From: Aquirhabdus parva
GTDB lineage: Bacteria > Pseudomonadota > Gammaproteobacteria > Pseudomonadales > Moraxellaceae
Assembly: GCF_003351745.1 (NCBI RefSeq)
Contig: NZ_CP031222.1
Span: 1,656,207-1,720,206, forward strand
Direction: 5' to 3'
Length of the DNA: 64,000 nucleotides
Shown: one piece after another, positions 36,875 through 47,656 of the stretch
How the letters are laid out: each line of letters opens with the position of its first letter
How positions within the stretch are numbered: the stretch's first letter is position 1
Position numbers and translations under genes: made by a program
The notes under the pieces: generated by a model
Seen by the model: only the letters and a program-made list of their open reading frames with translations
What the model was told of the DNA's origin: nothing
The model's database searches: none

Positions 36875-39800
36875 CTAGAAACGCCAGTTATAGAAGAAAT
36901 CGATTGCACGATCCAGAGAGGAACTCGCCTCCATATATAGCCGTTGCGTCATTTGATAGCGAAGTGTCAGCTTGTTGATCGGTGTAAATACGCCAACCCC
37001 ATAACGCAGATAGAGATCAGGTGAAATATAGCCAGTGACATTGACTGTAGTTCCATCGCCACTTCCCTCTGCATCAAAAGTCAGATTACTTAAACCAAAA
37101 GCACTACCCAGTTTATTGGTAAAACCACGAGAGCCACTTAGCCCCGCACTAATACCTGCTGCGGCTATGGCATTGTTTACATCTGAACGGAAACCCGCGG
37201 TGTTGTTAATCGTTGAGCTCGTCGAGTTGATATGTCCCGATAAAATCGCACTGTAGGTTTCTTGATCGGTTAACCCAGCATCATTAAATGTGGTGATCTT
37301 AGGATTACTTGCACGACCTGTGATTCGGAGCCCTACAGTATGGCTATCAATAATCTTAAATGCCTCGATATCCAATTGTGGCTGCAGCATAGGTCCACTG
37401 AAAATGACATTGCTCTTACTCAACGTCAGCGCTTGACCATAAGCTTCAACCCGTGCGTTACGCTGCAATGCAATTTGTCCTACGGCAGTCATACCACCTT
37501 GTCCGCGCTGGCGTATATGCAATTGACCAAGGAGTTTCGCATTAGAACCAAAGCCCCTAAAATAAACAGCATCGCCCAAAGCCGCATCGATATCCGCATT
37601 GATTGTCCATGCTTTTACATTTTGAAGTACGGTATCGACATTTTGATCCAAGCGCACGACACGGACGTCTGCAGATTTTGAGATTGCATTGCTTCCTGTG
37701 CTTGCGCCAGGAGTGATAGAGCCTCGAGGGACATCAATACGACCATTAATTGTTACTTGCTTGTCTATAGGTAAGACCTGAACATCTATTGAAGGACTAA
37801 CCCATACAGCGACCATCGGCGGTTGACGTATTTCTAATTCTTTTGCGACTAATTTTAAGTTAATTTCAGGCTTATCAACCCATGTTGCTAATCCAGTCAA
37901 AGTTCCCTTTCCGTCTCCACTCATAAATTGCCCATTGATACTGGCTTGAGTCCCGCGGATACTGGATGAAAAATTGATGTCATGCAGATTCAACGGTAGA
38001 TTTGTCGCAACAATGCGACCATTATTAAGCTTAAATTCACCATAGAATGCAGGATTTGTAAGTGGACCACTCATCCCGCCTGCAAGTGATGCAACACCTG
38101 AAAGATCGCGAATACCGGGTAAAAACGGTTTCAAGACTTGCAGTTGTACATCATCTAAAACCAACGCACCATTAATGGTTTTTGTTTCAGGTTTTGGATC
38201 AATCAGTGCATCAACATACCCTGTACCGATACTGGGAGTTTTAGCATCAAAACGGAGTTTTATACCATCACTTTCAGTTGCCAGTAGTAGACTTAAGCGT
38301 TGATATGGCATGGTACTTGGTGGGTCTTGTGGATCATCCGCAGCCAAACCAATAAAACCATTGTCTGTTGAGATTTGGGCGTTGATTTGCGGCGATGTGT
38401 TGGCTTGCCAACTGGCCGTTGCATGACCTTGTAATTTTCCAGTCCAGACCATGCCACTTGGCATCACGTCATTGAAACCGGCTAGATCTAATGCATCAAG
38501 TGCAATTGCGACATGACCAGCTTGCGCACTGGCAATCAAAGGTTCCGTAATGCATAATTTACCTGCACCAGACCAGCAATGTGCGGCTAATGTGACTGCT
38601 TGTGTTTGATGTAAATATTGTAGTGCCGCAGCTTGCTCTTGTTTTAAGGTGAGCTGCTTCGTACTTAAGGCGCCTTGGCGTATCTGACCAATCCAATCCA
38701 TTTGCTCGTTCAAGCCACCAGCTAATTGCACCGAAAATTGTGTTTTCGGTGTTTTAATTGCCATATCTAAAGCATGAGATTTTTGTGTGCCTGTAAGCTT
38801 GGCATTAACATTGTTTATAACTTGCTTCCCTCGACGCAAGTCATTCACGTTGAGTGTCAATTGACTCGGTTGGAGCCCTAGTTGAGGAATATCACCAATA
38901 AGAGTGGCATTTTTGATGGTCAGCTCAGGCATTTTTAATTGTTCTACCGACAAATTAATATGCGCATCAGGTGACTGGCTTTGGCCAGAGAGAGAAACTG
39001 TTCCATAGACTCGACCATTTAAATTTGGGCTAATCTGCCCTAAATTCCGGGCATCAATATTCATCAAGAAATTACCAACAGGAGCACCTGTACCACTCGC
39101 ACTGGCACCACCATTTGCAGTAACACGGTTACCAGCCCAATCAACCATAAAGTTGTTGGCAATTAAACGTTCTGGTAGCGGCGATACTGCTTTGGGATTG
39201 AAAATGGCACTCAAAGAGCCCTTTGCCAGTAAAGGTTGTTTTTTCAATGATCCTGCTAAATCTAATTGTGAAATTTGAACATTGCGTACCAAAGCATCCC
39301 ATTGTCCTGTTGTGTTAAAGGCACCGCTGAGTGCGCTTGGATAAGTTGGGACAAAGAAACCTAAATTAAAATTATTGAGTCGACCTGTCGCTTGCCATTG
39401 AAGACCAGCTTTGGTCATAATTTGACCTGTTGCACTGATCTGACCTGCTGCGCCGTTATGTTCAAAACGCTCGATTCGGGTGAGGTCTGGTGTACCTGAA
39501 ACCTGAATATTCAGATTCCCGGTGGGCGCTTCACTACCTTTTAAATCACCATCAAATTTTGCGGAGTATGATTTCAAACCGCTTGTATTCTTAGCGGTAT
39601 TCATCAGCAAAATTGCTTGTCCCTTTCCTGTAAGAGAAATATTTCGTGATGGAGTACTAGCTCCTTTTTGTACGGATTCTGATTGAAGGATTCCCGTTAG
39701 TTCAGGCTGTACAGAAATGGTTTGTTGTGCTTGCGTACTGATTCCCGAAGCTGTAATTGCACCCTGTAAGCGTTGTATTGGTGAAGAGACAATAGAAGTA

Positions 39801-41476
39801 AGGTCTAAACCTTTGGTTGCAACTGAAGCAGCCCAAGTCATCGGTTTGGCGGCTTTCTTCTTCTCTGCTTTGGTAGCAAAACTAATATTTGCTGCAGCAC
39901 CTAAAGACCCAGCATCTCCTTTGAACGTCAAAATCGGAATCTTCACACCCGTTGGCTGACTGATAATGGTGGCTGCATAATGCCCAGATGGCACATGCTG
40001 GCTGGGAAGCATTTCAATCGTTGTATTAATGGTTGTAAGACCTTGGTGCATTCCGATTTTTGCAGTACCGCTTCCAGTATTAATCTGTCCAGCCCCAGCT
40101 AATGTACGACTCAGGTTTTGCCATCGTGCATCTACGGCAAGTGGAAGGCTATTATTTCCCATGCTTCCTGCACGCCCCACGCCCACAATCCATTGTTCAC
40201 CTACAGAACTAATTAATCTGACCCCCAATTGGGTATGGTGTTTCCCCATCAATGCGGTATGACGAAATGGTCCAGTTAATGTTTCAGGTAGGTACGTAGA
40301 ATAAGGTTTTATATTTTCTGGTAGTAAATTGGCGACTTTGACACCTGTAAATTGCCCTTGGATAAACCAACGTAAATCACCCTGCCAATCCAAACGCCCA
40401 AAACCAGTTGCTGTCCCTTGTGCAATTTTTGCATTTAAAGATTGGATATCCAGACCCTTGTAGTCCGTAAACAACTTAACATCGTATTGTCCAGCAGGAA
40501 CGCTGCTACCCATGAAGTCAGTGACGATATGAATATCTATACCATGAGGGAGGCTTGAAATTTCAGCTTGCCCCGTTTTTGAGTAGAAATTTTGGTCCGT
40601 GACAATGGGCCAATGGAAATCATTCCAATTTAACTTACCTTTCAACGATAAAATATGATCCATGGGACGTACAATAAGATTGCCACCCATCACATCCTTT
40701 GTTTGTGCAACAAGACCTGCATGTATTTCTTCTAAATCACCAGTAACATTGACTTGGAATGGTGGAAAGCCTTCTTTATGCAACAAAGGGATTGCTAAGC
40801 GACCAGTAAGTTTGATGGGATAATGACGATTAAACTCCATGTCACCAGTAACTTGATCTGCTTCAAATTCTGCGCTCTTAATACTGGAATCTTTTAAAGT
40901 AAGTAAATCCTCTTTCCAGCGCGCTTCTCTCAAATGGACTTGAGTAAAAACAATGTCAACTCTAGGTTCAAGTTGATGGGAAACGGGATCAAGAACCACT
41001 TGACTAATAGTTAGACCATTAATAATGCCTTCATTCACACGAAGTACGACCGGCAGTTTAATCGGGGTATAGGTAAAAGGCTTGCCGTTGGAGAGGGTTT
41101 TTGAATGGATAACCAAATCATCTATAACGGCATGACTTAAATGCACTTCTCCTGCAAGTACTGAACGCCAGCCAATTCGAGCAACTATCTTCTTTGCAGT
41201 AATATCGGTCTTTTCTAAATTGACTCGAAATTGATCTAATGTCACGCCATTTTGCAAGTTACCGCCTACATAATGATAGGTAACTAGATGCTGAAGCGTG
41301 CCAGCCTTGTCGAGTAGAAATTTTGTCCCAGAATCCGATCCTGCAAGAGCAAAGAGACCAATAACTAAAAGGGCAAGCAGACCAAAAATTAGACTAAAGA
41401 CACCAACTAATACACGTCGCAATGTCTTTTTTTTAGGTAATGTTGGTTGAGTTGTTGATTGTTCAGGAGCAGTCAT
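36875..41476 (-). CDS. tamB: Translocation and assembly module protein TamB
   Basis: TamB is the very long beta-helical groove protein that spans the periplasm from the inner membrane to TamA and is implicated in lipid transport to the outer membrane. The 1533-residue product has an N-terminal membrane anchor (about residues 18-44). A long series of beta-strand repeats of AsmA/TamB type follows, with a DUF490 C-terminal domain from roughly residue 1180 ending in an aromatic-rich strand (DRAIDFFYNWRF). E. coli TamB is about 1260 residues, so this one is longer in the middle. Its ATG overlaps the tamA stop by one base (TAATG), so translation is coupled. Confidence 0.94.
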   Translation of the reverse strand: MTAPEQSTTQPTLPKKKTLRRVLVGVFSLIFGLLALLVIGLFALAGSDSGTKFLLDKAGTLQHLVTYHYVGGNLQNGVTLDQFRVNLEKTDITAKKIVARIGWRSVLAGEVHLSHAVIDDLVIHSKTLSNGKPFTYTPIKLPVVLRVNEGIINGLTISQVVLDPVSHQLEPRVDIVFTQVHLREARWKEDLLTLKDSSIKSAEFEADQVTGDMEFNRHYPIKLTGRLAIPLLHKEGFPPFQVNVTGDLEEIHAGLVAQTKDVMGGNLIVRPMDHILSLKGKLNWNDFHWPIVTDQNFYSKTGQAEISSLPHGIDIHIVTDFMGSSVPAGQYDVKLFTDYKGLDIQSLNAKIAQGTATGFGRLDWQGDLRWFIQGQFTGVKVANLLPENIKPYSTYLPETLTGPFRHTALMGKHHTQLGVRLISSVGEQWIVGVGRAGSMGNNSLPLAVDARWQNLSRTLAGAGQINTGSGTAKIGMHQGLTTINTTIEMLPSQHVPSGHYAATIISQPTGVKIPILTFKGDAGSLGAAANISFATKAEKKKAAKPMTWAASVATKGLDLTSIVSSPIQRLQGAITASGISTQAQQTISVQPELTGILQSESVQKGASTPSRNISLTGKGQAILLMNTAKNTSGLKSYSAKFDGDLKGSEAPTGNLNIQVSGTPDLTRIERFEHNGAAGQISATGQIMTKAGLQWQATGRLNNFNLGFFVPTYPSALSGAFNTTGQWDALVRNVQISQLDLAGSLKKQPLLAKGSLSAIFNPKAVSPLPERLIANNFMVDWAGNRVTANGGASASGTGAPVGNFLMNIDARNLGQISPNLNGRVYGTVSLSGQSQSPDAHINLSVEQLKMPELTIKNATLIGDIPQLGLQPSQLTLNVNDLRRGKQVINNVNAKLTGTQKSHALDMAIKTPKTQFSVQLAGGLNEQMDWIGQIRQGALSTKQLTLKQEQAAALQYLHQTQAVTLAAHCWSGAGKLCITEPLIASAQAGHVAIALDALDLAGFNDVMPSGMVWTGKLQGHATASWQANTSPQINAQISTDNGFIGLAADDPQDPPSTMPYQRLSLLLATESDGIKLRFDAKTPSIGTGYVDALIDPKPETKTINGALVLDDVQLQVLKPFLPGIRDLSGVASLAGGMSGPLTNPAFYGEFKLNNGRIVATNLPLNLHDINFSSSIRGTQASINGQFMSGDGKGTLTGLATWVDKPEINLKLVAKELEIRQPPMVAVWVSPSIDVQVLPIDKQVTINGRIDVPRGSITPGASTGSNAISKSADVRVVRLDQNVDTVLQNVKAWTINADIDAALGDAVYFRGFGSNAKLLGQLHIRQRGQGGMTAVGQIALQRNARVEAYGQALTLSKSNVIFSGPMLQPQLDIEAFKIIDSHTVGLRITGRASNPKITTFNDAGLTDQETYSAILSGHINSTSSTINNTAGFRSDVNNAIAAAGISAGLSGSRGFTNKLGSAFGLSNLTFDAEGSGDGTTVNVTGYISPDLYLRYGVGVFTPINKLTLRYQMTQRLYMEASSSLDRAIDFFYNWRF

Positions 41477-43884
41477 TAAAGTGGCGCTCCTATGTAGAAT
41501 ACCAAACGAACAGGTACACTTCTTTCAGAAACACCAGCAGCGATATCCACTCGAACCGGCCCTACCGGAGAAGCCCAACGTACACCAAAACCAGCACCAA
41601 CCTTAACAGGATCCGTAAATCGTTTATCGAAAGCATTACCCGCATCAACAAATACCGCCCCGCGCCATTTGGGTTTAAATAAATAATTATATTCAAAGGA
41701 TCCTACGGCAAGGTTCTGACCACCAATATTATAGCCATTGCGCTGAGTCGATAAACTCTTATAGTCAAACCCCCGAATACTCTGATCTCCACCGGCAAAA
41801 AAGCGCAGATTATAAGGAACATCATCAAAATTAGTGGTGATAATGGATCCTAGATCCGCACTGGCAACAATCTGATGCTTAACTGCAAAGGTCTGTAATC
41901 CGCGAAATCCAGCACGTAAAATCACCATATTGGCATCAGAAAACGCGGTTTTAGCACCAGTGTCGATTTGATAAAATTGACGAAAACCTGAAGTCGGATT
42001 AATTCCTCCTTTAGAGGTGACTTTATTGAGTCCAAATCCAAAGAGCAGCGCTTGTTGATTGGTACTAATCCCTGCAACGTTAAATGGCGGAGGTAATGTT
42101 GAGGGGTCAACATTATCAAGAGCATTGTTTTCAAGCTGATCTAAACGATAACGTATCGAGTATGTGCGTTGCCAATCCCCAGCAGGTTTAACAGCACGTT
42201 GTGCCCCCACCGTTATAGTTTTAGTATTAACATCCAATCCACTGGTTTCATTTAATTTTTCATCTTCAAACCCACCGAACACACTAAACACGTCTTCAAG
42301 TGGGCTTCCCAATGGGATGTTATATTTCACATCCAAGGCTTTACGAATTTTTGATGCTTCAGCATTGGCATCGAAACTATGTCCTGAGTCATTTATCAAT
42401 GCACGGCGGTATTGAGTCCGAATTCGAGGTCCAGTATCGGTTCCAAAGCCCAGTCCGACCTCAGCGCTGTTAGGATGATCCGCATTCAGTAAAACAATGA
42501 CGGGAATGCTATATTTCGCATTGTTAGTAGCTGGTGAGTGATCATCTTTGATGTCAACAGCTTTGACAGTAGCGAGGCCAGTATTTTGATCATTTAAGAT
42601 TGAGGAATCGATAGCCCCTTGTAAGGCTGTCTTGGCCTGAGCTGCCGGCGTAGCATCTTTACTAGCTGTCGGAGATTCAGTTTCATTAGTCTTTGGTGGA
42701 GAGGCACCATCTTTCGCAGCCGAGTTGCTGTCTGTCGGCGGCTTAATCTCAGCTGTACTTGATACTGTTGCAACTGCTGGGGTACTTGTTGCCTCGTCAA
42801 CTAACGCATCTGGCGTTGGCGCATCAACTTGAACATTATTAAAATAACGCGTATCTAATAAATTGCGAGATAATTTTGCAAGTGCGTTTGCACTATAAGG
42901 GTCACCGGGTTTGAACGGTTGTAATGTAGCAAGTACCTCAGGCTTAATGGGTAGTTTAGTGCTGCCATTGGTATTTTTATAAATCACATCACCAAACTTA
43001 TACCGTACTCCGCTCTCATATGCCAAAACAATATCTGCTGTTTTGGTTGGAAGCGTCACTTGTACATCATGGGCAAGAAAATGCCCTAAAAAATACCCTC
43101 GATCTGTTGCCATATTAATAATTCTATTTTTTGTTTTTTCATATTCACCATGGTTGAAAATATCACCAACTTGTAAATCTGGCGAGCTTTGCAGACGTAT
43201 AAAGGGTTTATCTTTTGCAGCTTCACCAGTAATTTCGATTTTTTGACTTGCAACTTTCACTGGATCACCAGGTACGACATCAATAATTAAGGTATCCGTG
43301 CCATTTTTGCTGAATCTGAAATTGGCATCGTAATAGCCCACTGCCTGTGCAGCATCTGTTGCTAGGCTTCTAAAACGAGGAAGACCAAACTGGAAATCTT
43401 CGAAATCAGAAATCGTTACCTGTTTTAAAGTTTCGATTAAATTTGTCTCAAGTTCTTCAGGGGCGCCATTGACCTTAACTGAAATGGTAGGCTCAGCGGG
43501 CATTGCTACGTATTCTTCCGTTGTATCCGGTTTCCGCCAAAAAAATATGGTATTTCGCACGCGTTTGAAGAAGCCGGGCTTGGCTTTTGGTGTAGCGACA
43601 GGAGTATCTGTATTGGCTGTTGACGGCGTGGGTTGACGAGCTACTGCTGATGAGGCTCCTGCTTCAGTTGAAGTCACAGCCGATACTTTGGTTGTAGTGG
43701 TTTCATCGCTAGCAGTGGATGAGTTGTTGGATGCATCCGCGTTTACTTGAGTGTTCGTATCATTAGTATTTTGAGTCGAATCAATAGGTGGTGATTGTAC
43801 CGGCTCGGCGGCTTGAATCGCTGTTGATGTCAAACTAGCACCAACGACCATCCACACAAATGATGAAAAACGCGAAATTGGCAT
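41476..43884 (-). CDS. tamA: Translocation and assembly module outer-membrane protein TamA
   Basis: TamA is an Omp85-family outer-membrane barrel working with TamB. After a signal peptide (cleavage near IQAAEP) come about 90 Thr/Ser/Ala-rich residues. POTRA domains start near residue 135, and the 16-strand barrel begins around NADHPNSAEVGLGFGTDTGPR. The barrel has the Omp85 lid motif RFFAGGDQSIRGFDYKSL and a terminal strand ending VRLVFYIGAPL. At 802 residues it is much longer than E. coli TamA (about 577). The excess is the N-terminal linker plus a low-complexity stretch of about 95 residues (357-452) inside the last POTRA domain. tamB follows directly. Confidence 0.93.
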   Translation of the reverse strand: MPISRFSSFVWMVVGASLTSTAIQAAEPVQSPPIDSTQNTNDTNTQVNADASNNSSTASDETTTTKVSAVTSTEAGASSAVARQPTPSTANTDTPVATPKAKPGFFKRVRNTIFFWRKPDTTEEYVAMPAEPTISVKVNGAPEELETNLIETLKQVTISDFEDFQFGLPRFRSLATDAAQAVGYYDANFRFSKNGTDTLIIDVVPGDPVKVASQKIEITGEAAKDKPFIRLQSSPDLQVGDIFNHGEYEKTKNRIINMATDRGYFLGHFLAHDVQVTLPTKTADIVLAYESGVRYKFGDVIYKNTNGSTKLPIKPEVLATLQPFKPGDPYSANALAKLSRNLLDTRYFNNVQVDAPTPDALVDEATSTPAVATVSSTAEIKPPTDSNSAAKDGASPPKTNETESPTASKDATPAAQAKTALQGAIDSSILNDQNTGLATVKAVDIKDDHSPATNNAKYSIPVIVLLNADHPNSAEVGLGFGTDTGPRIRTQYRRALINDSGHSFDANAEASKIRKALDVKYNIPLGSPLEDVFSVFGGFEDEKLNETSGLDVNTKTITVGAQRAVKPAGDWQRTYSIRYRLDQLENNALDNVDPSTLPPPFNVAGISTNQQALLFGFGLNKVTSKGGINPTSGFRQFYQIDTGAKTAFSDANMVILRAGFRGLQTFAVKHQIVASADLGSIITTNFDDVPYNLRFFAGGDQSIRGFDYKSLSTQRNGYNIGGQNLAVGSFEYNYLFKPKWRGAVFVDAGNAFDKRFTDPVKVGAGFGVRWASPVGPVRVDIAAGVSERSVPVRLVFYIGAPL

Positions 43885-44016
43885 GCAAAAGAACCTGTTT
43901 GACTACCGAATAGGATGAGTGGTGACCAGATGAATAATAACGTGTTGTCCTAAAGCTTGCTAGTGAACTCAGAGATCGTTATGGTAGCAGTCGCCTGTAT
44001 TCTAGCTGAGCGGTTC
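43885..44016. promoter_or_regulatory. Divergent tamA / MFS intergenic region
   Basis: This is 132 bp with divergent starts on both sides. I see no clear promoter pair or operator. In-frame TTG 43957, GTG 43963 and ATG 43981 could extend the MFS protein but have no Shine-Dalgarno support. Confidence 0.3.
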
Positions 44017-45330
44017 ATGCCTAACCAATTTTCACTTCTAAAAACACGACGTTTTTTACCAATTTTTATCACCCAATTTTTGGGTGCATTAAATGACAAT
44101 ACATTTAAGCAAGCTTTAGTGATCTTGTTCACATTTCATGCTGCTGAAATCATGCATATTCAGCCGACTATTTTAAATAACCTTGCTGCAGGCTTATTTA
44201 TTTTGCCGTATTTCTTATTTTCCTCTACGGCTGGGCAAATCGCAGATAAGTTTGAGAAATCGAAGCTTACTCAATATATCAAAATCTTTGAAATTTGCAT
44301 TATGTTGTTGGCAACAATAGGTTTTTTTACACATAATTTTTGGCTGCTGATGTTTGCTTTATTCCTCATGGGAACGCATTCGACTTTTTTTGGCCCTATA
44401 AAATACAGCATATTACCCCAGCTTCTTGCGAAGAAAGAGCTGGTGGGTGGCAATGGCATGTTTGAAACAGGAACCTCTCTTGCAATCCTCGCTGGCATGA
44501 TTTTGGGTGGTGCAATTATGGCCAATGCGGGTGGAAATTTTGCGTGGATCAGTGGAACTTTATTGGCAATTGCAGTGATTGGATATTTGTTTTCTCATGA
44601 AATTCCTGCGCAATCTGTTGGACATGCTCAATTAAAAATAAATTGGAATGTTTTTGTAACTACTAAAGAAACATTAGTTTATGCCAGTAAATTAGGTGAT
44701 GTTTTTTACACAATCATTGGAATCTCTTGGTTTTGGTATTACGGCGCTACCTTTTTGACTCAAATTCCAGAATTTACCCGTGTTGTGCTACATGGATCGG
44801 AAAGTGTGGTCACCTTTTTATTGACTATTTTCTCCATCGGAATTGCATTGGGTTCTTTGCTGTGTGAGCGTTTTACAGGGCATACCGCTAGCTTAAAATT
44901 AGTGCCTGTGGGTGCCGTAGGTCTTGCGGTATTCTCAGCAATACTTTATCTCTCCACCCAAAATCTCGTCCATGTAACCCATCATCAAAATATTGTAGAA
45001 GTGGTCCACCAATCCCAATATTGGCCCGCATTATTTTCATTGTTCGGTATTGGAGTCTTTGGCGGTTTTTATATTGTGCCGTTGTATGCGCATTTGCAGT
45101 CTGACGCACCAGAATGTTTTAGAGCACGCGTGATTGCAGCAAATAGCATTATGAATGCACTATTTATGGTGATTTCAAGTCTAGTGTCTGTCGCGATCTT
45201 GTCAGGGTTACATCGTACAATTCCAGAATTGTTTTTAATCACAGCCATATTGAGTACCTTAGTTTCATTGATTGTTATCCGTCATTTACGAAATAATGGT
45301 CAAGAAGACTCAACAAAAAACTTGGAGTAA
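44017..45330 (+). CDS. MFS transporter, LplT-like (lysophospholipid transporter type)
   Basis: This is a 12-helix major facilitator protein of 437 residues with the opening [25 protein letters not shown]. That block is characteristic of LplT and of the MFS half of Aas-type acyltransferase fusions. [20 protein letters not shown] and [15 protein letters not shown] are also diagnostic for this branch. In E. coli LplT flips lysophosphatidylethanolamine inward for the acyltransferase Aas. No acyltransferase gene is adjacent here. Start ATG 44017 has GAGCGG a few bases upstream and gives the usual family N terminus. coq7 follows by 5 bases, but a functional link is not obvious. Confidence 0.85.
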
Positions 45331-46189: not shown

Positions 46190-47656
46190 ATGCCAGCCAT
46201 TTTTCTTTCCCACCCCTTAGAGTGCGCAGTTACGCTTTTATTATTGGATGTCGCGTTTTGGCGATTTATTCCAGAGACTCTTAAGTATTGGCGATTGGCA
46301 GGAAGACTCATCGTTTTCTTGCTTTACAGTACCATTTTGTTAAAAGCAGGAATGAGTCCTCTTAAAGCAGCACCGTGGTCAGAAGAACCCCTTCTCCATC
46401 TGGTTTCCATGGGACTTGAAATAATTTGGTGGCTTTTGGGAGCGCGAACATTAACGATATTAATTAACACTTTATTTATTCCCGAGGTCGGTAAAAAAAG
46501 TCGATTATTAACAGACGTGCTTGGGGCAGTAATTTTTCTCATCGCGGTGATTGCAGCAACAGCGTACGTAATGGGATTACCTGTAAAAGGTCTACTTGCG
46601 ACCTCTGGTGCAGTCGCAATTATTATGGGTTTGGCATTACAAAGTACCTTGAGCGATGTGTTCTCTGGAATCGTGCTCAATACTACAAAACCTTATCAAC
46701 TGAATGATTGGATTGTCGTTGAATCGACCGAAGGTAAAGTTGTCGAGATCAATTGGCGTTCCACACATCTGTTGAACGGTGTAGGTAGTCTCGTCATTTT
46801 GCCCAACTCACTAATCGCAAAAACAAAAATTATTAATTTAAGTCGCCCCAGTAATGTTCACGGCATTTCAATCATCATTGAAGTCACTCCTGAAGCACGC
46901 CCTCGTACTGTGCTTGAAGCCCTTGATCGAGCGATTAAGGGGTGCAGCGAATTGCTCACAACACCTGGAGCCAGTGCAAAGCTTAAGCATGCAAAAGCAA
47001 TTTCTATTGAATACGAGATTAATGGTTTTGTGCGCTCAATGGACCAAAAGACGCGTGTTTGTAATTTACTATATGACCTTGCCTATCGACATCTTGCGGC
47101 TACAGGTGTCCTGTTGCATAACTTATCCCTCCCGATGGTGATCCCGCCTCAAGCGACGCATCAAAAGATATTACTGGATGGAATTAGCATTTTCAGGACA
47201 TTAACCGATGATGAGAAATTAAGTTTAAGCACAAAAATGGTCGGGCACGAATACCCTGTAGGTGAAGAAATCATTACTTTTGGTGAGGTGACGAACTATT
47301 TGCTTATTATCGAATCGGGGGTTATTTCTGTATGTCTAGCAACCCAAGATGGCTCGGTAATCGAAGCAGGTAGAATGGGTCCTCGGGAGGTTATCGGTGA
47401 ATCAGGCATTTTGAAAAATACGCCTATGCGGGCGCACTTTAGAACGTTAACACCGACTATGGTTTATCGCATAGAAAAGGATGATTTGATGCCGTTTATC
47501 CAAGCTCGTGCGGAAGTTGGCGATGCACTTTCGAATTTATTAAGCCTTCGTGAGCATACTGGACAGACATTATTGGCTGAACATGAATCTTTGCCCGTTG
47601 CTCAGCATGGTTTTAGGCAGTGGATTCGTAGAACATCGACGTGGTTAAAGAAATAA
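46190..47656 (+). CDS. MscS-family mechanosensitive channel with cyclic-nucleotide-binding-like domain
   Basis: This 488-residue inner-membrane channel has three or more N-terminal membrane helices. The MscS pore-lining helix and beta domain follow: GLLATSGAVAIIMGLALQ and STLSDVFSGIVLNTTKPYQ, then LNDWIVVESTEGKVVEINW, the hallmark of MscS. From about 330 it adds a C-terminal CNB/CRP-like domain, with the phosphate-cassette pattern GPREVIGESGILKNTPMRAHFR (core GESGIL and MRA). MscS-CNB fusions are known in bacteria, where they are thought to be gated by cyclic nucleotide or similar ligands. A hairpin covers the translation start. It is convergent with folK, 8 bp away. Confidence 0.88.
   Translation: MPAIFLSHPLECAVTLLLLDVAFWRFIPETLKYWRLAGRLIVFLLYSTILLKAGMSPLKAAPWSEEPLLHLVSMGLEIIWWLLGARTLTILINTLFIPEVGKKSRLLTDVLGAVIFLIAVIAATAYVMGLPVKGLLATSGAVAIIMGLALQSTLSDVFSGIVLNTTKPYQLNDWIVVESTEGKVVEINWRSTHLLNGVGSLVILPNSLIAKTKIINLSRPSNVHGISIIIEVTPEARPRTVLEALDRAIKGCSELLTTPGASAKLKHAKAISIEYEINGFVRSMDQKTRVCNLLYDLAYRHLAATGVLLHNLSLPMVIPPQATHQKILLDGISIFRTLTDDEKLSLSTKMVGHEYPVGEEIITFGEVTNYLLIIESGVISVCLATQDGSVIEAGRMGPREVIGESGILKNTPMRAHFRTLTPTMVYRIEKDDLMPFIQARAEVGDALSNLLSLREHTGQTLLAEHESLPVAQHGFRQWIRRTSTWLKK

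Follow-up and report, generated by a model that had tools for sequence, protein, structure and literature searches.

Most of what is known about TAM comes from E. coli and a small number of other species. The solved TamA proteins of E. coli (4c00; with TamB in 9xdc/9xdd) and P. aeruginosa (8us1-8us3) are alike in having three POTRA domains, a 16-stranded Omp85 barrel and TamB as a partner, and both have only a short turn between strands β2 and β3 of POTRA3. In E. coli, according to PMC4525385, POTRA3 comprises residues 190-261, and POTRA1, the dock that has been tested experimentally, is needed for TamB binding. PMC12800296 adds contacts between TamB residues within 1153-1167 and N237, S238, N227 and V241 of E. 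coli POTRA3 as well as F159, and PMC13098762 (primary source Mellouk et al. 2024) reports a direct interaction of TamA POTRA domains with outer-membrane lipids. The insert described below is not mentioned in the literature searched, nor in the searched passages of PMC4525385, PMC4494059, PMC4104836, PMC13098762 and PMC11014939.

The locus analyzed here lies in a window of 64,000 nucleotides, the whole stretch of DNA under study, from Aquirhabdus parva. Its tamA gene (41476-43884, minus strand) encodes 802 amino acids and was identified with Pfam and phmmer. The Omp85 family (PF01103) matches with 115.6 bits (cut-off 24), POTRA (PF07244) with 51.4 bits in two stretches, and POTRA_TamA_1 (PF17243) with 29.6 bits (cut-off 26); the best PDB relatives in phmmer are the solved TamA chains 8us1 and 4c00. 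Directly after it on the same strand comes tamB (36875-41476, minus strand; 1533 amino acids; Pfam TamB PF04357, 164.9 bits), whose start overlaps the tamA stop by one base (TAATG). The AF2 model of the window TamA, made with a 43-row alignment, has a mean pLDDT of 77.0 and a pTM of 0.69, with POTRA3 and the barrel well folded. It contains three POTRA domains at about residues 134-468, the first of them of the TamA type (PF17243), and a 16-stranded Omp85 barrel (41479-42471, minus strand; residues 472-802; Pfam, AF2 and Foldseek). In Foldseek, this model retrieves E. coli TamA 4c00 at rank 1 (E 7.6e-50, TM 0.85 by target length). Elsewhere in the window, an open reading frame at 46190-47656 on the plus strand would encode an MscS-like channel, the C-terminal part of which, as read from its sequence, resembles a cyclic-nucleotide-binding domain.

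In contrast to the short turn of the E. coli and P. aeruginosa proteins, the window TamA has 101 residues at the β2-β3 hairpin of POTRA3, between YFNNVQVDAP and YSIPVIVLLN (42514-42816, minus strand; residues 357-457). The original prediction had placed about 95 residues at 42525-42815, inside POTRA3 and rich in Ala, Thr, Ser, Asp, Lys and Pro, and the measurements come close to it. The insert contains A19, T14, S11, D10, P9 and K8, and its Shannon entropy of 3.51 bits is lower than that of all 470 windows of the same length in the remaining TamA (minimum 3.84) and of all 1432 such windows in TamB (minimum 3.63). Disorder-promoting residues make up 86% of the insert versus 66% of the remainder, and its GC content is 0.482 versus 0.427 elsewhere in tamA. 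An origin from tandem repeats was rejected, as no tandem DNA repeat was found within 41000-44200.

The position of the insert within the domain follows from two lines of evidence. In phmmer comparisons with solved TamA chains, POTRA1-3 are aligned up to residue 359-364 and the alignment resumes at 454-461 (three alignments shown). In the AF2 model, POTRA3 (42481-43008, minus strand; about residues 293-468, with Pfam POTRA at 295-358) consists of β1 (296-304), helices at 315-319 and 332-344, β2 (350-354), the insert and β3 (459-467); the β-α-α-β-β domain is complete, its five elements all have high pLDDT, and the insert separates β2 from β3. Since the insert is followed by β3, and β3 by the barrel (from 472), the insert is inside the β2-β3 hairpin of a complete domain. 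It is hardly credible, then, that the segment lies between POTRA3 and the barrel or is an artefact of annotation or assembly; besides this order of strands, the frame is open without an internal stop, and an insert occupies the same place in three further genomes of the genus. Within the insert, pLDDT is below 50 over residues 367-412 and 428-454, and a weak helix is predicted at 413-430. As modeled, the insert is a largely disordered periplasmic loop that emerges from the POTRA3 hairpin, with the fold and the barrel intact.

This assembly is not alone in having the insert. TamA was matched in 197 of the 199 genomes of a family sample, and 114 TamA proteins from the family and order samples were aligned, omitting partial genes and loci with too-short flanks; most omitted loci were re-taken with longer flanks, and three with partial genes only (G014, G019 and G030) are outside the count. 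In eight Moraxellaceae genera, each of the 72 full TamA proteins has 48-209 residues at the POTRA3 hairpin, versus 7-8 residues in all 17 from seven other Moraxellaceae genera and 5-9 in all 25 taken from the order outside Moraxellaceae. The inserts measure 48, 48, 77 and 101 residues in the four genomes of the window genus, with little conservation among them, 93-94 in Alkanindiges (n=4), 89-134 in Acinetobacter (n=32), 86 and 92 in two genera represented by one MAG each, 125-136 and 130-182 in Moraxella groups g11 (n=8) and g7 (n=4), respectively, and 151-209 in Psychrobacter (n=18). In a titled-locus set (n=80), which has genomes in common with the family and order sample and is not independent of it, inserts of 79-189 amino acids were found in 62 of 62 clade members; the other loci were three Moraxellaceae or Moraxellaceae-like MAGs with 7-8 residues, four of Salinicola with 47, and 11 others with 7-8.

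Beyond the order, 158 of the 274 genomes of a class sample matched an insert-free Moraxellaceae TamA query. Among the matches listed, 145 of 150 rows (138 of 142 genomes) span the hairpin in one piece, and their alignments contain, over the full length, no more than 32 net extra residues. Four outliers were inspected, three of which have extra residues near the hairpin (G507, about 30; G233, 44; G375, 24), with none there in the fourth (G354). These smaller inserts indicate that the hairpin takes insertions occasionally, the Moraxellaceae clade being the extreme case. The peculiarity is, consequently, not wholly confined to Moraxellaceae. The TamA proteins of Salinicola (L195, L196, L197 and L199) resemble that of the window in that their POTRA3 hairpin also holds an insert, one whose conserved core reads WW.E.TGRDTTA....LGGPGL; they differ from it in the length of the insert, in showing no visible sequence similarity to it and in lying outside the Moraxellaceae clade.

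A FastTree phylogeny of 73 sequences was built from the alignment columns of the POTRA domains and the barrel, leaving the insert out; it is a tree of TamA itself and not an independent species tree. In it, all 38 insert carriers of the clade form one group with a support of 1.0, and two Salinicola rows fall outside this group, the Salinicola insert being apparently independent of that of Moraxellaceae. Inside the carrier clade, Acinetobacter groups with Alkanindiges (0.839) and Psychrobacter with Moraxella (1.0), and the placement of the window genus is weak (0.104-0.42). The simplest history would be a single gain on the stem of the clade, without loss.

The N-terminal region of TamA also differs between these systems. 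The E. coli and P. aeruginosa proteins are without a long N-terminal linker, whereas about 105 residues separate the signal peptide from POTRA1 in the window TamA. Most of this is a linker rich in Thr, Ser, Ala and Asn (43573-43809, minus strand; about residues 26-104, by composition and AF2), much as had been predicted, and residues 1-100 have pLDDT below 50. Just before POTRA1 there is a basic-aromatic segment, KPGFFKRVRNTIFFWRKP (43528-43581, minus strand; residues 102-119), with a modeled helix at 105-114 (pLDDT of about 64). In the insert clade, 117-468 residues precede POTRA1, versus 9-62 in most others, and the tail ends in segments of this kind, KPGFFKRVRNTIFFWRKP in the window genus, KPNIFKRIWYRFWPP in Alkanindiges and KPGFIKGLYNRFFNDG in Psychrobacter, with similar ones in other insert-bearing genera. 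The segment is possibly a contact for a partner or the membrane. Its reading as a significant amphipathic helix was unsupported, with shuffle fractions of 0.09-0.31.

Across the Moraxellaceae clade, the hairpin alignment and the insert profiles are in agreement with the expectation that the insert is kept in position and not in sequence. Two insert types are recognizable. In the Psychrobacter and Moraxella groups, about 90 columns are common (hhalign 99.85%, 98.4% and 97.3%), including KL..I..KA.RL..LPDDRVLDE as a motif and LLGKIS.AIS..AK.I.PDE as a helix; the segments common to Acinetobacter and Alkanindiges are PDPI..LELP and VVDE.QFAG (hhalign 97.3%). The insert of the window genus contains the conserved segments of neither type and matches both with an hhalign probability below 1%; homology of the two types to each other or to the window insert was likewise undetectable (hhalign below 1%). 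To judge from these comparisons, the sequence of the insert has been largely rewritten since its acquisition. The description of the insert as low-complexity holds for the window genus and fails for most of its relatives, whose inserts hold conserved segments.

The TamA of Acinetobacter and Alkanindiges is like that of the window in having an insert at this hairpin, a long N-terminal extension with the basic-aromatic segment and a TamB of about 1500-1530 amino acids. Psychrobacter and Moraxella also have the hairpin insert and the long N-terminal extension, but their inserts are of 125-209 amino acids, about 90 of which form a conserved module that includes an amphipathic helix, and their TamB proteins are of 1582-1689 amino acids. 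When Psychrobacter and Moraxella inserts were scanned, the best helical moments were 0.59-0.67, a level reached by no more than 10 of 5000 shuffles, so that their helix is strongly amphipathic. In an AF2 model of a Moraxella TamA (L164; mean pLDDT 72.4), the insert has helices at 501-518, 537-552 and 581-587, the first two with pLDDT of about 50-67. In one Acinetobacter and one Alkanindiges insert, the best 18-mers reached 0.31-0.46, the top ones over proline-rich stretches. No convincing amphipathic helix was found in the window insert, where the best 18-mer has a moment of 0.25.

Rates of substitution were compared between pairs of related species, which have species in common. Over the whole insert, dN/dS was 0.094 in Acinetobacter (30 pairs) versus 0.042 in the core, and 0.148 in Psychrobacter (40 pairs) versus 0.051. 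Thus, the insert is under purifying selection in these two genera, 2-3 times looser than that on the core. The parts of the insert outside the motifs have values of 0.154 and 0.184 and evolve 3-4 times faster than the core (0.042 and 0.051); the named conserved segments have values of 0.015-0.122, which are partly circular because these segments were picked for looking conserved. Estimates within the window genus were set aside, as synonymous sites are near saturation there (pS 0.73).

TamB differs in the same clade. As predicted, it is longer in the window than in E. coli (1533 versus 1259 amino acids in chain 9xdc_B), and complete TamB proteins of the insert clade have 1498-1690 amino acids, versus 1335-1357 in the complete ones of other family genera. 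By alignment with the latter, most of the extra length is at 39077-40279 (minus strand; about TamB residues 400-800). In genus g2 (L212-L214), the longest TamB open frames have about 1000 residues and are open at the 5′ edge of the sequence examined, which may reflect a shorter or split TamB or merely the extent of that sequence. With regard to the contact with TamA, the phmmer alignment equates E. coli N237, S238 and V241 with N349, N350 and V353 of the window TamA, so that β2 of POTRA3 (42823-42840, minus strand; residues 349-354) corresponds, given the contacts in PMC12800296, to the TamB-contacting strand of E. coli, and the insert starts three residues past it. The original prediction had put POTRA3 beside the barrel and the TamB docking site, where a flexible loop could alter contact with TamB or the substrate. 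The insert does adjoin a TamB-contacting strand; nevertheless, the experimentally tested dock is POTRA1, and POTRA3 is one of three interfaces.

The TamB loop that aligns with the E. coli POTRA3-contact segment (37142-37246, minus strand; about residues 1411-1445) holds a clade-specific sequence, GFRSDVNN. The corresponding motif, F[KR]S[DEQ]V[NT]N, is present in 61 of 65 TamB proteins of the clade, the exceptions being one incomplete sequence, one of the window genus and two of Moraxella group g7, and in none of 30 others (17 of other Moraxellaceae, 10 others and 3 of Salinicola). The motif and the TamA insert occur together on just a single branch, which counts as one event. A coupling between the insert and the length of the TamB loop was rejected, since loops as long or longer occur without a TamA insert in Moraxellaceae genera g3, g4 and g6, and the reverse is found in Salinicola, where the 47-amino-acid insert is accompanied by a TamB loop of ordinary length. 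The even longer loops of the former (FGHAPERQQALFG...) were seen in L215-L218, again without an insert.

What the loop does may be considered in terms of binding, of tolerance or of contact with the membrane. We favor the first, at about even chances: the loop would have grown out of the POTRA3 β2-β3 hairpin once, on the stem of one Moraxellaceae clade, and been kept in every sampled member, serving in most genera as a flexible tether that holds short putative binding segments beside the TamB-contacting strand. The likeliest partners would be the C-terminal region of TamB or the outer membrane at its inner face. In the window genus, the binding segments would be gone and a shorter spacer left, which may be near neutral; the length of 48-101 amino acids and the little conservation among four genomes fit such a spacer. 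This proposal builds on the position of the insert, its distribution, its occurrence in a single clade, its predicted disorder, the segments that other genera conserve within it and the purifying selection on the loop of Acinetobacter and Psychrobacter; the amphipathic helix of Psychrobacter and Moraxella and the clade-specific TamB motif also speak for it. Against it stand the limitation of that motif to one branch, the long TamB loops of g3, g4 and g6 without an insert, the ordinary loop of Salinicola and the low pLDDT of the Moraxella helices. We infer the binding function and the partner stepwise, first binding from the conserved segments and then a function from the binding.

The loop might instead be neutral and merely tolerated by a hairpin that accepts insertions, with no role beyond leaving the fold undisturbed. 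Smaller, apparently independent inserts at this hairpin (47 amino acids in Salinicola, 24-44 in three genomes) are in line with this, as are the absence of a profile match between the window-genus insert and those of other genera and the faster evolution of the non-motif parts. Moreover, as PMC3871556 reports, the POTRA domains of E. coli BamA tolerate many 5-residue insertions, some of those in POTRA2 and POTRA3 being severe, which makes tolerance alone plausible for the TamA loop. However, no loss was seen among 72 clade members, and a neutral loop would not be expected to keep conserved segments or to be under purifying selection, as the insert does in Acinetobacter and Psychrobacter, so for the clade as a whole this explanation is on the unlikely side; for the window genus in particular, it is a serious rival. 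A further, improbable alternative is that the insert, for instance through an amphipathic helix, binds the outer membrane at its inner leaflet, making it thinner or tilted close to the barrel, instead of binding TamB. The strong amphipathic helix of Psychrobacter and Moraxella and the lipid interactions of TamA POTRA domains reported in PMC13098762 would suit such a role, but the Moraxella helix is modeled with low confidence and the moments are lower in the one Acinetobacter and one Alkanindiges insert scanned and lowest in the window.

A broader and rather doubtful reading is that the clade has a distinct TAM, with two flexible TamA arms (at POTRA1, an N-terminal tail ending in the basic-aromatic segment; at POTRA3, a loop that bears motifs) and a longer TamB with a new docking-loop motif, in which TamB or phospholipids would be held by extra, exchangeable contacts that are absent from the E. 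coli TAM. The clade-level variant of TamA is real; the function proposed for it is putative. As Acinetobacter, Moraxella and Psychrobacter all carry the insert, structures and inhibitor ideas that take E. coli TamA as their basis may overlook a part specific to this clade where POTRA3 meets TamB.
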